DNA of 64,000 nt from the NCBI RefSeq assembly GCF_026967795.1, contig NZ_JAPVBH010000004.1, positions 62,001 through 126,000 of the forward strand, written 5' to 3'. Source of the stretch: Modestobacter sp. VKM Ac-2986. GTDB lineage: Bacteria > Actinomycetota > Actinomycetes > Mycobacteriales > Geodermatophilaceae. The first letter of the stretch is position 1. Every line of letters begins with the position of its first letter. Below, piece after piece: positions 51,246-54,196 of this stretch. The position numbers and the translations under genes are program-made. Under the pieces are notes generated by a model. The model was not told where the DNA came from. It did not search any database and saw only the letters and a list, made by a program, of their open reading frames with translations.

Positions 51246-52916
51246 TCAGTCCCGGGTGCCCGACGAGCGGTGGCGCACCGCGTATGTGAGCGCGTCGACC
51301 AGGGCCCGCCAGGAGGCCTCGACGATGTTGTCGTGCACCCCGACGGTGGTCCACTCCCCCGCGCCGTCGGTGGTGTCGACCAGCACCCGGGTGGTGGCGC
51401 TGGTGCCGCCCTTCCAGCCCAGGATGCGCACCTTGTAGTCGGCCAGGGAGACCCCGGCCAGGTGCGGGTGGCGGCCGACCAGCGCCTGGCGCAGCGCGTT
51501 GTCCAGGGCGTTGACCGGGCCGTTGCCCTCCGCGGTCATGATGACCCGCTCCGTCGTCCCGTCGGCGTTGGGCAGGTGCACCTTGACCGTGGCCTCGCTG
51601 ACCACCGCACCGGTGGCCGCGTGCTCGACCGAGGCCCGCCAGCTCTCCAGCTGGAACAGCGGCGCGGGGGCGTCCGGCAGCTCGGCGCGCAACAGCAGCT
51701 CGAAGGAGGCGTCGGCGGCCTCGAAGGACCACCCCTCGGCCTCGAGCACCTTGACCTGGTCGACGACCCGGCCGATCGCGTCGCCCTGCCCGGTGACGTC
51801 CACGCCGAGCTCGCGGCCCTTGAGCTCGACCGAGGCCCGCCCGGCCATCTCGGTGACCAGGATGCGCATGTCGTTGCCGACCACGGCGGGGTCGAGGTGG
51901 TTGTACAGCTCGGGGTCGACCTTGATCGCGCTGGCGTGCAGCCCCGCCTTGTGCGCGAAGGCCGAGGCGCCGACGAAGGGCTGGTGGTCGTCGGGGGCGA
52001 TGTTGGCCAGCTCGGCGATGGCGTGGCTGACCCGCTTGAGCTCGGGCAGGCACTCGGCGGGCACGACCGGCAGGCCCATCTTGGTGACCAGGTTGCCGAT
52101 CAGGGCGAAGGTGTCGGCGTTGCCGGCCCGCTCGCCGTAGCCGTTGGCGGTGCCCTGCACGTGCGTGACGCCGGCCTCGACCGCGGCGAGGCTGTTGGCC
52201 ACCGCGCACCCGGTGTCGTCCTGGCAGTGGATGCCGAGCTTCCCGGTGGTGCGGGCGCGCACGTCGGCGACCACCCGGCCCAGGCCCATCGGCAGCATCC
52301 CGCCGTTGGTGTCGCACATGACGCCCACCTCCGCACCCGCGGCGAACGCCGTCTGGAGCACCTGCACGCCGTAGTCGGGGTCGGCGGCGTGGCCGTCGAA
52401 GAAGTGCTCGCAGTCGACGAACACCCGCCGGCCGTGGGCCACCAGGTGGGCGACGGTGTCGGCGACCATGGCCAGGTTCTCCTCCGGCGTGGTGCGCAGC
52501 GCCTCCCGCACGTGCCGGACGTCGGACTTGGCGACCAGGCAGACCACCGGGGTCCCCGCGTCCAGCAGCGCCTGCACCTGCGGGTCCTCGGCGACCGCGA
52601 CCCCGGCCTTGCGGGTGGCACCGAAGGCGACCAGCTGGGCGTGCCGCAGCTGCAGCTCGGTGCGCGCGCGGGCGAAGAACTCGGTGTCCTTGGGCAGGGC
52701 GCCGGGCCAGCCGCCCTCGATGAACCCCACCCCGATCTCGTCCAGCAGCCGGGCGACGGCGAGCTTGTCGGCCACGGAGTAGCTCACGCCCTCGCGCTGG
52801 GCGCCGTCGCGCAGCGTCGTGTCGAAGACGTGGAAGTCGGTGACGGCGGAGCGTGCGTCGGCGCCGTGGAAGCCGGTGGCGTCGACGGTCGGAGTGGTGG
52901 CGGGCTGGTCGGCCAC
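51246..52916 (-). CDS. cimA: Citramalate synthase
   Basis: A LeuA-like enzyme condensing pyruvate and acetyl-CoA to citramalate for isoleucine synthesis without threonine. Catalytic FHVFDTTLRDGAQREGV, GFIEGGWPGALPKDTEFF (the CimA-type variant), HCQDDTGCAVANS and GTANGYGERAGNADT; a C-terminal regulatory domain follows from about 420. GTG 52916 has GGGAG with a 5-base spacer, giving 556 residues. The ATG at 52952 adds 12 residues but abuts a G6-T6 element. Downstream of an Ile-Ile-Val leader peptide. Confidence 0.9.
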   Translation of the reverse strand: MADQPATTPTVDATGFHGADARSAVTDFHVFDTTLRDGAQREGVSYSVADKLAVARLLDEIGVGFIEGGWPGALPKDTEFFARARTELQLRHAQLVAFGATRKAGVAVAEDPQVQALLDAGTPVVCLVAKSDVRHVREALRTTPEENLAMVADTVAHLVAHGRRVFVDCEHFFDGHAADPDYGVQVLQTAFAAGAEVGVMCDTNGGMLPMGLGRVVADVRARTTGKLGIHCQDDTGCAVANSLAAVEAGVTHVQGTANGYGERAGNADTFALIGNLVTKMGLPVVPAECLPELKRVSHAIAELANIAPDDHQPFVGASAFAHKAGLHASAIKVDPELYNHLDPAVVGNDMRILVTEMAGRASVELKGRELGVDVTGQGDAIGRVVDQVKVLEAEGWSFEAADASFELLLRAELPDAPAPLFQLESWRASVEHAATGAVVSEATVKVHLPNADGTTERVIMTAEGNGPVNALDNALRQALVGRHPHLAGVSLADYKVRILGWKGGTSATTRVLVDTTDGAGEWTTVGVHDNIVEASWRALVDALTYAVRHRSSGTRD

Positions 52917-52953
52917 GGTGTCTCCCGGTGGGTTCGGTTCGGGCCCGGACATG

Positions 52954-52979
52954 AAAAAACCCCCCGGGGCACGGGAGGT
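52954..52979 (-). terminator. Putative attenuator terminator upstream of cimA
   Basis: On the cimA strand, ACCTCCC-GTGCCCC-GGGGGGT forms a 7-bp stem followed by a run of six T (overlapping the stem end). T-runs are very rare in this genome. It lies 38 bases before the GTG of cimA. Confidence 0.55.
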
Positions 52980-52981
52980 GG

Positions 52982-53010
52982 GCGCGCAGTCGGTGGTGCT
53001 GACTGCGCGC
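52982..53010 (-). promoter_or_regulatory. 10-bp hairpin starting at the leader stop codon
   Basis: GCGCGCAGTC-AGCACCACC-GACTGCGCGC: a perfect stem whose first base is the last of the leader TAG. A ribosome paused on the Ile codons would cover its first arm. It sits between the leader peptide and the terminator-like hairpin. Confidence 0.6.
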
Positions 53011-53039
53011 TAGACGATGATCGAGCCGGTGGTGTGCAT
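53010..53039 (-). CDS. Nine-residue leader peptide MHTTGSIIV upstream of cimA
   Basis: ATG CAC ACC ACC GGC TCG ATC ATC GTC TAG. Two isoleucines and a valine end the peptide, with two threonines before. This codon content matches the product pathway of cimA. There is no Shine-Dalgarno site, so the message may be leaderless; TACTGG lies at -11 to -6 from the ATG, and TTCCAC at -37 to -32. It follows the leuB terminators. Confidence 0.55.
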   Translation of the reverse strand: MHTTGSIIV

Positions 53040-53070
53040 CACGGCCAGTACAGCACGCCCGGGCCGGTGA

Positions 53071-53110
53071 GTGGAACGGGGCGTCCACTGTGCGGGACGC
53101 CCCGTTCCAC
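53071..53110 (-). terminator. 16-bp perfect hairpin between leuB and cimA
   Basis: GTGGAACGGGGCGTCC (53071-53086) pairs exactly with GGACGCCCCGTTCCAC (53095-53110), loop of 8. It directly follows hairpin repeat member E, making a double terminator after leuB and isolating the cimA leader. Confidence 0.75.
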
Positions 53111-53176: not shown

Positions 53177-54196
53177 TCAGCCGGCGAGCGCGGCCAGGCG
53201 GTCGCCGACCTCGGCGGTGCGGATCGTCGCCTTCGGGTCGCGGGTGGACAGGTCGAAGGCGACCGCGGCGTTGACCTTCTTGGCCAGCTCCGGCCGGCCG
53301 AGGTGCTCCAGCAGCAGGCCGACCGACAGCACGGTGGCCGTGGGGTCGGCGACGCCGGTGCCGGCGATGTCGGGGGCCGAGCCGTGCACCGGCTCGAACA
53401 TGCTCGGGTTGGTGCCCGAGACGTCGAGGTTCCCGCTGGCGGCCAGGCCGATGCCACCGGTCACGGCGGCGGCCACGTCGGTGACGATGTCGCCGAAGAG
53501 GTTGTCGGTGACGATGACGTCGTAGCGGCCCGGGTCGGTGATGAAGAACATCGCCGCGGCGTCGACGTGGGAGTAGGCCACGGTGACCTCGGGGAACTCC
53601 GTGGACACCTCCTCGACCGTGCGCGACCACAGCGACCCGGCGTGGGTGAGCACGTTGGTCTTGTGGATCAGCGTCAGGTGGCGGCGGGGGCGGGCCAGCG
53701 CCCGTTCGAAGGCGTAGCGCACCACGCGCTCCACGCCGAAGGCGGTGTTGAGGCTGACCTCGGTGGCCACCTCGTGCGGGGTGTCCCGCCGCAGCACGCC
53801 GCCGTTGCCGACGTAGGGGCCCTCGGTGCCCTCGCGGATGCAGAGCATGTCGATCTCGCCGGGCGCGGCCAGCGGACTGCGCACGCCGTCGAAGAGCCGG
53901 GCCGGGCGCAGGTTCACGTGGTGGTCGAGCTCGAAGCGCAGCTTGAGCAGCAGCCCGCGCTCGAGGATGCCGCTGGGCACCGAGGGGTCGCCCACCGCGC
54001 CGAGCAGGATCGCGTCGTGGCCGCGCAGCTCCTCCAGCACGGAGTCCGGCAGCAGCTCACCGGTGCGCTGCCACCTCGCCGCCCCCAGGTCGTAGGGGGT
54101 CGCCTCGACGTCCGGGGCGACCGCGCCCAGGACCTTGAGGCCCTCGGCCACCACCTCGGGACCGATGCCGTCTCCAGGTACCACTGCCAGGCGCAT
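53177..54196 (-). CDS. leuB: 3-isopropylmalate dehydrogenase
   Basis: A 339-residue NAD-dependent oxidative decarboxylase of leucine synthesis; also able to serve the citramalate route. [19 protein letters not shown] opens it, with the substrate region [19 protein letters not shown] and the signature [25 protein letters not shown]. The ATG at 54196 is chosen over an upstream in-frame start at 54244 because it gives the family's start. It lies downstream of the subtilase gene. Confidence 0.96.

Follow-up and report, generated by a model that had tools for sequence, protein, structure and literature searches.

A Candidate Isoleucine-Responsive Attenuator in the Leader of Actinobacterial cimA

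1. Introduction

The trp, his and ilv attenuators of E. coli carry their control codons in the first hairpin and can form a 2:3 antiterminator. Among Actinobacteria, one of the closest described systems is the mycobacterial ilvB1NC leader, for which it is reported that a stalled ribosome allows an antiterminator to form, while a ribosome on the stop codon masks it (PMC13236596). According to the available text of the same paper, replacing LVVI by AAAA in the M. tuberculosis ilvB1 leader gave a low, inducer-independent expression, and this phenotype was eased when the terminator was disrupted. Other ilvB leaders are treated in PMC1262725 together with the LEU element of leuA; as cited there, codon changes in the leader peptide of S. 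coelicolor ilvB had no effect on regulation. IlvL of S. lividans is described as being transcribed leaderless (PMC8079986). For Corynebacterium, an antiterminator that overlaps the terminator was modelled both in the ilvB-II motif (PMC10272879) and in the three-hairpin attenuator of C. glutamicum ilvBNC (PMC11857589).

A term search of PMC1262725 returned neither cimA nor citramalate, and cimA is absent from the eight S. lividans leaders listed in the available part of PMC8079986. Two papers contain both citramalate and attenuation words (PMC12452182 and PMC13158618), and no cimA leader is treated in the portions of their text that were available. Among the matches listed in a search of papers available without subscription, no title or abstract opening was on a cimA leader.

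2. The Leader in Modestobacter sp. VKM Ac-2986

The window analysed here is a stretch of 64,000 nucleotides. From its sequence, an initial annotation had proposed that cimA is preceded by a leader peptide ending in Ile-Ile-Val and by an attenuator-like structure. A check of the sequence placed all the named elements (an upstream open reading frame or uORF, a hairpin, a stem with a U run, a GGGAG site and a GTG) on the minus strand where they had been claimed (Table 1). It was also correct that the stop codon opens the hairpin, but the opening base is the last base (G) of the TAG and not the first. The spacer between hairpin 1 and the terminator-like stem is 2 nt.

Table 1. Features of the cimA leader region and the second leader of the same genome. 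Positions are those of the window.
Feature	Position	Strand	Details and basis
Extended -10 promoter element TGC TGTACT	53047..53055	-	7 nt 5' of the uORF ATG; sequence
uORF MHTTGSIIV + TAG, probably leaderless	53010..53039	-	ATG 53039, TAG to 53010; sequence
Ile codons of the uORF	53021-53016	-	sequence
Hairpin 1	52982..53010	-	10 perfect bp, 9-nt loop; sequence, folding, covariation
Intrinsic-terminator-like element	52954..52979	-	8-bp stem 52979-52959, 5-nt loop; sequence, folding, covariation
U run of the terminator-like element	52959-52954	-	six U; sequence
GGGAG ribosome site of cimA	52922..52926	-	sequence
cimA, citramalate synthase	51246..52916	-	TIGR00977 602.8 bits (cut-off 450); likely start GTG 52916
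ilvBNC leader of the same genome (L112), peptide VPRTRLLVAIH	64712-64792 (G000:C10:126712-126792), just past the right end		covariance model R1

Folded alone, the leader of the window gave a z-score of -1.82, and 10 of 200 shuffled sequences folded equally well. By itself, it is only mildly remarkable, folding being weak evidence; a chance origin is excluded by the comparison with relatives and not by the folding of the window.

Upstream, leuB ends at 53177, and the leuB-cimA gap of 260 bases contains an inverted repeat, followed by the leader with its own promoter box. The repeat, seen by eye at 53071-53110, is a perfect one of 15 bp with a 10-nt loop and is perhaps a leuB terminator or a regulator site.

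The initial annotation also considered that the second stem could act on translation, should the ATG at 52952 be the true start of cimA. This was addressed with 26 leaders that were pattern-matched out of the window and 29 relatives; where a further start codon lies ahead of the ATG, the peptides read for this set are too long by at least one codon. An ATG is in frame at this site in the window only, eight leaders having an in-frame GTG and 17 neither. A GTG or ATG lies 33-42 nt 3' of the U run in all 26. Because the ATG at 52952 is unique to the window within this set and a start at 33-42 nt past the U run is general, GTG 52916 is the likely start of cimA. Translation control from ATG 52952, in frame in one (the window) of the 26 leaders, was therefore unsupported and was rejected.

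A search of the window against Rfam yielded two tRNAs and nothing else, and 12 loci with leaders gave seven matches at a threshold of E 1, none of them at its own gathering score. A known riboswitch or T-box was rejected for the window and the 12 leader loci on the grounds that no Rfam match reached the gathering score; the families concerned include T-box, ilvB-OMG and ilvH.

3. Conservation and Distribution

Twenty leaders, none of them titled Geodermatophilaceae, served to build a covariance model (R1). Against the whole genome of the window, it found the cimA leader with an E-value of 1.2e-9 (R1 is short-calibrated, and its E-values are rough), and the second match, with an E-value of 1.0e-6, was the leader of ilvBNC (Table 1). 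Two weaker matches (E 0.02 and 0.13) were taken as chance, as no gene for branched-chain amino acids (BCAA) was recognised among the neighbouring open reading frames listed. For the matches at E 1.1 and 4.5, the comparison with cimA and ilvB was negative.

The attenuator-like leader claimed for the window turned out to be real and widely kept. One scan of genome contigs gave 80 named cimA loci that were kept, and the element was found in 76 of them by R1 (E up to 1e-4) and in 76 likewise by a pattern with inspection by eye, so that both methods agree; since R1 had been trained on 20 of the 80, the independent part of the R1 figure is 56 of 60. The element is missing from L060, L106 and L109, where cimA lies, by eye, close behind leuB. 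At the remaining locus (L043), the contig ends 30 bases upstream of cimA.

A second set was drawn from the same family or the same order. It was taken from 22 places, of which G019 and G047 were left out with a partial cimA. The element was present in 15 of these 20 loci, a set that overlaps the others (L160 and L085 share a contig; L159 and L118 are the same place, as are L165 and L133). R1 matched none of the other five (L149, L151, L162, L163 and L164) at E up to 1, and in each of them cimA stands close behind a gene recognised by eye as leuB. L018, L029 and L030 likewise have no element; the first two lie behind leuB, and L030 is on the contig of L060. As the leader-less loci follow leuB closely, absence of the leader goes with a short gap behind leuB.

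Within the class, R1 gave a match at E up to 0.01 in 256 of 394 genomes. Seventy matches were classified, namely the 30 top-scoring loci and, from among the matches listed, 40 selected to cover other families, and cimA was downstream of all 70 (at L170, only its first codons are visible); some of the lower-scoring matches will be ilvB leaders. One genome (G310) has two cimA stretches (L169 and L170), each preceded by a leader of its own. cimA was not found in 24 genomes of family f8, 20 of which had no R1 match and four a match at E 2.5e-6 to 0.005; an empty result of this type of search means nothing by itself, and the positive control was a search that found 52 of 59.

In a sample of the phylum, 29 of 119 genomes gave a match at E up to 1e-3, and 24 of the 29 are outside the class. 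The gene downstream was examined for 20 of the outside-class matches, from 18 of the 24 genomes: 15 precede ilvB, one cimA (L251; TIGR00977, 647 bits) and one leuA (L245; TIGR00973, 711 bits), and three were unclear. By eye, L251 follows the same plan with an unrelated stem sequence (GCACACACGC). Two matches in other classes precede unexpected genes, one standing before isocitrate lyase with a uORF ending in FVAIA (L254) and one before a region leading to a prephenate-dehydratase-like frame with a uORF ending in RVLLIT (L253).

4. The uORF and Its Isoleucine Codons

For the comparison of leaders, an alignment (A5) of 98 sequences fitted to R1 was used. It started from 122 matches in 100 sources; L112 (the ilvB leader) and L165 (the same place as L133) were removed, and a stricter threshold took out 22 weak, mostly antisense matches. 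The uORFs were framed by script in 90 leaders and by eye in eight.

Conservation of the Ile codons had been suggested as a check on the leader peptide, and the result was positive: all 98 aligned leaders, every one chosen from loci having the element, encode Ile close to the stop, with two or more Ile codons in 91 and a single one in seven. The leader ORF thus shows the clustered product codons of a classical attenuator. Isoleucine accounts for 45% of the final five residues in the 63 uORFs that have their TAG at the opening of hairpin 1. In 86 of the 98 leaders, the distance from the first Ile codon to hairpin 1 is 14 nt (57 leaders) or 11 nt (29 leaders), the other 12 having a different spacing or not being framed.

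In 71 of the 98 leaders (63 framed by script and eight by eye), the stop codon coincides with the base of hairpin 1; in the other 27, it lies 10, 13 or 16 nt inside the hairpin. Examples in which the stop at the base was lost and the uORF runs on to a later one are L061, L105, L121 and L129; in L067 and L072, both outside the set of 98, the uORF also runs into hairpin 1. None of the 27 leaders whose frame crosses into the hairpin has an Ile codon inside the 5' arm, and three (L090, L120 and L126) have one just after it. The control codons that a classical leader carries in the 5' arm of its first hairpin were therefore not found here.

The peptides are 8-16 residues long in 86 of the 91 framed uORFs, with ATG as the start in 44 and GTG in 47, the only two start codons that both framing rules permitted. 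A -10 box of the TGN-hexamer type was found 5-10 nt before the nearest in-frame ATG or GTG in 70 of 90 uORFs, compared with 10 of 455 control windows upstream, and the other 20 are without a box at the tested spacing. This count follows a box-free rule, as a count of 71 of 91 was biased by starts chosen partly by the box. Since the -10 box sits just upstream of the start codon, the uORF is probably leaderless.

Some 30-60 nt before the promoter box, part of the cimA leaders (for example L158, L155 and L156) show a loose palindrome of the type TCTCAnnATGTGAGA with TTCCCA, which is possibly a regulator site. A simple pattern matched 15 of the 98 leaders, compared with 4.3 when single bases were shuffled. 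Similar boxes seem, by eye, to occur before ilvB.

5. RNA Structure

Compensatory changes, the other check that had been suggested, were found in both stems, in the 98 leaders as well as in a model-free set of 48. In A5, where pair counts lean to the structure of R1, 95.8% of cells are paired, and double changes occur at 16 of 21 pairs; 193 double-changed cells were observed against 44.4 (sd 6.7) after shuffling and at most 26 with the partners slid. Double changes fall on seven of the ten pairs of hairpin 1 and on nine of the 11 pairs of helix 2, the terminator, where 98.3% of cells are paired; the U run is present in the aligned rows. The outer GCGCG pairs of hairpin 1 are nearly invariant, and it is the upper half and the terminator that hold the changes. 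A MAFFT alignment of 48 leaders made free of R1 (A1) recovered the same two helices, and two hairpin 1 pairs show double changes in 24 of the 48 each. A putative intrinsic terminator thus appears to stand between the leader ORF and cimA.

The two hairpins share no base, and the spacer between them is 0, 1 or 2 nt in 75, 19 and four of the 98 leaders, respectively. The mean predicted pairing probability of the terminator was 0.98 when hairpin 1 was present and 0.94 when the 5' arm of that hairpin was masked. As the two states differ so little, equilibrium folding gives no switch. With the 5' arm masked, the probability fell below 0.5 in four of the 98, which is opposite to the direction proposed below.

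The initial annotation had failed to identify a convincing antiterminator pairing, and its doubt was right. A scan of column pairs in the 98 leaders found no third covarying helix and returned isolated pairs only, several of them with third positions of Ile codons. An antiterminator helix that is mutually exclusive with the terminator, as in classical attenuators, is absent from these leaders, and a conserved base-paired antiterminator was rejected. Classical attenuation might still operate through a pairing that is not conserved as a helix, for example one in which the loop of hairpin 1, rich in C, binds the 3' arm of the terminator, rich in G. The C-rich loop present in many Geodermatophilaceae could, by eye, pair with the GGGGGG arm, and a loop-arm pairing is so modelled for the Corynebacterium ilvB-II motif in the available text of PMC10272879. 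However, the loops of hairpin 1 vary between 2 and 51 nt in the 98 leaders and differ in sequence, the scan found no third covarying helix, and the 3' arm of hairpin 1 is too close to the 5' arm of the terminator (0-2 nt) for a hairpin loop to fit in between. This form of classical attenuation is therefore considered unlikely.

6. The Same Chassis before ilvB and leuA

The ilvB survey covered 34 genomes with ilvB, 30 of them with loci, and the other four (L265-L268) were inspected singly. R1 found an ilvB leader at 29 of the 30 loci, with the genome of the window included; at the remaining one the contig is cut. An abutting two-hairpin leader stands before ilvB in 28 of 29 relatives and in the genome of the window, where it is a separate copy from the cimA leader. 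The predicted gap between the hairpins is 0-1 nt in 29 of 29, and the leader peptides are rich in Leu and Val, mostly with Ile. The same plan is shown by L266-L268 and by L265, in which the uORF runs on into hairpin 1. L265 belongs to family f8 of the same order; its ilvB leader encodes LVVI and forms, on folding, two hairpins separated by 1 nt. This would tie the chassis to the tested mycobacterial case if f8 is, as we infer, mycobacterial.

While ilvB serves all three branched-chain amino acids, cimA serves isoleucine only and leuA leucine only. The leuA leader of another class (L245) encodes MSQNLLLT with Leu-Leu-Leu, and the cimA leader of another class (L251) encodes MSASIIIIA. With Ile at cimA, Leu/Val/Ile at ilvB and Leu at leuA, the leader codons, as read from the sequences, track the product of the downstream pathway. 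The cimA leaders share the ilvB-type layout, in which a BCAA uORF stops at or in hairpin 1 and the terminator follows 0-2 nt later, but the gene is cimA instead of ilvB, and Ile takes the place of the mixed Leu/Val/Ile codons.

The match between codons and product bears on the possibility that the leader does not respond to isoleucine at all, the uORF and the terminator setting a constant low level of cimA or acting via translation or mRNA decay. Such a reading would agree with the ineffective codon changes in the S. coelicolor ilvB leader reported in PMC1262725. It is, however, hard to reconcile with product-matched codons in samples across the phylum, with the covariation of the terminator or with the in vivo result for mycobacterial ilvB1 described in PMC13236596, and it is considered very improbable.

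The initial annotation had assigned the leader to the threonine-independent route to isoleucine. A qualifier is needed: a gene for a threonine ammonia-lyase (TIGR01127, 408 bits; cut-off 379) is present in the genome as well, so that cimA provides one of two possible ways into isoleucine synthesis, and it is this one that the leader would govern. No R1 match was reported within 12 kb of the threonine ammonia-lyase gene.

7. Proposed Mechanism

Leader-peptide attenuation of cimA, as first suggested from the window, is supported by the Ile codons, the covarying stems, the terminator-like stem with its U run and the parallel with ilvBNC. Taken together, the cimA leader is likely to be an isoleucine-responsive transcription attenuator that works through translation of the uORF. 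To judge from the -10 box, transcription would start at or beside the start codon of the uORF, and a ribosome would translate the leaderless frame of nine codons. When Ile-tRNA is ample, the ribosome would reach the stop codon and mask the 5' arm of hairpin 1, and the terminator would close before cimA. When Ile-tRNA is scarce, the ribosome would stall at the first Ile codon with its leading edge at or just short of hairpin 1, and hairpin 1 would fold. The folded hairpin, almost spacer-free, may then block the lower pairs of the terminator in the exit channel of RNA polymerase, which would result in readthrough into cimA.

This geometry was examined with a 26-nt ribosome mask centred on the decoding codon, as assumed in PMC13236596. 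With the first Ile codon being decoded, the mask extends approximately to the start of hairpin 1, whereas a ribosome on the stop codon, which lies at the base of the hairpin or inside it, covers the 5' arm. Hairpin 1 would thus be permitted by a stall at Ile and forbidden by completed translation. If cimA rises on isoleucine shortage, hairpin 1 must oppose termination, and physical hindrance is proposed because it shares no base with the terminator and folding shows no switch. The block is suggested to be steric, since no more than 0-2 nt separate hairpin 1 from the foot of the terminator; two duplexes lacking a linker would not fit together at the polymerase exit. Taken alone, this steric step is put forward tentatively and may well be wrong.

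The sign of the switch could also be the opposite one, with hairpin 1 aiding termination as a stacked helix or a pause site and a stalled ribosome that covers its base lowering termination. Hairpins at which polymerase pauses are a regular part of trp and his leaders. With two to three Ile codons, a ribosome stalled on the last of them would cover the first base pairs, and the four leaders whose terminator is predicted to be weaker with the 5' arm masked fit such a model. However, in 57 of the 98 leaders the first Ile codon is 14 nt upstream, roughly as far as a ribosome extends, and a ribosome stalled there would leave hairpin 1 almost or fully intact. Classical leaders, moreover, have their control codons in the first hairpin, which does not hold for any of the 27 frame-crossing leaders. 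The opposite sign is thus regarded as quite unlikely. For an attenuator in which hairpin 1 opposes termination, it is only the mycobacterial ilvB1 precedent that argues for the direction of the switch.

Attenuation as such is known; what sets this leader apart is the gene, the tuning to isoleucine, the broad distribution and, most of all, the missing antiterminator helix. The leader points to a regulator for the citramalate route into isoleucine synthesis in Actinobacteria. Furthermore, the Ile leaders of cimA, the Leu/Val/Ile leaders of ilvB and the Leu leader of one leuA provide a natural series of codon swaps on one RNA chassis. It is conceivable, if somewhat doubtful, that attenuation here dispenses with an antiterminator helix, the sensor hairpin acting by hindrance in the exit channel and the choice of codons alone adapting the chassis to cimA, ilvB or leuA. 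As no antiterminator was found in 98 strongly covarying leaders, the non-classical behaviour reported for the BCAA leaders of Streptomyces becomes directly testable. If the steric reading is true, it would represent a simpler design of ribosome-controlled termination and a usable isoleucine sensor.

8. Comparison with Known Systems

Like the trp, his and ilv attenuators of E. coli, the cimA leader would set termination by the position of a ribosome on product codons. Unlike in these attenuators, neither control codons in the first hairpin nor a 2:3 antiterminator was found in the cimA leaders.

With the Corynebacterium ilvB-II motif (PMC10272879) and the C. glutamicum ilvBNC attenuator (PMC11857589), the candidate shares the attenuation of an actinobacterial BCAA gene through a uORF and a terminator hairpin. 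It differs from both, as their texts describe them, in having no overlapping structures. The uORF of ilvB-II spans most of P1, whereas the cimA uORF ends at hairpin 1 in 71 of the 98 leaders.

The resemblance to the actinobacterial ilvB leaders described in PMC1262725 and PMC8079986 lies in the short leader ORF with BCAA codons and the terminator with a U run; the cimA codons are, however, Ile rather than a mix of Leu, Val and Ile. The mycobacterial ilvB1NC attenuator differs in its gene, ilvB, in its mixed codons and in a terminator and antiterminator that its authors describe as mutually exclusive, but it has in common with the cimA leader a BCAA uORF, hairpins and an intrinsic terminator (PMC13236596).
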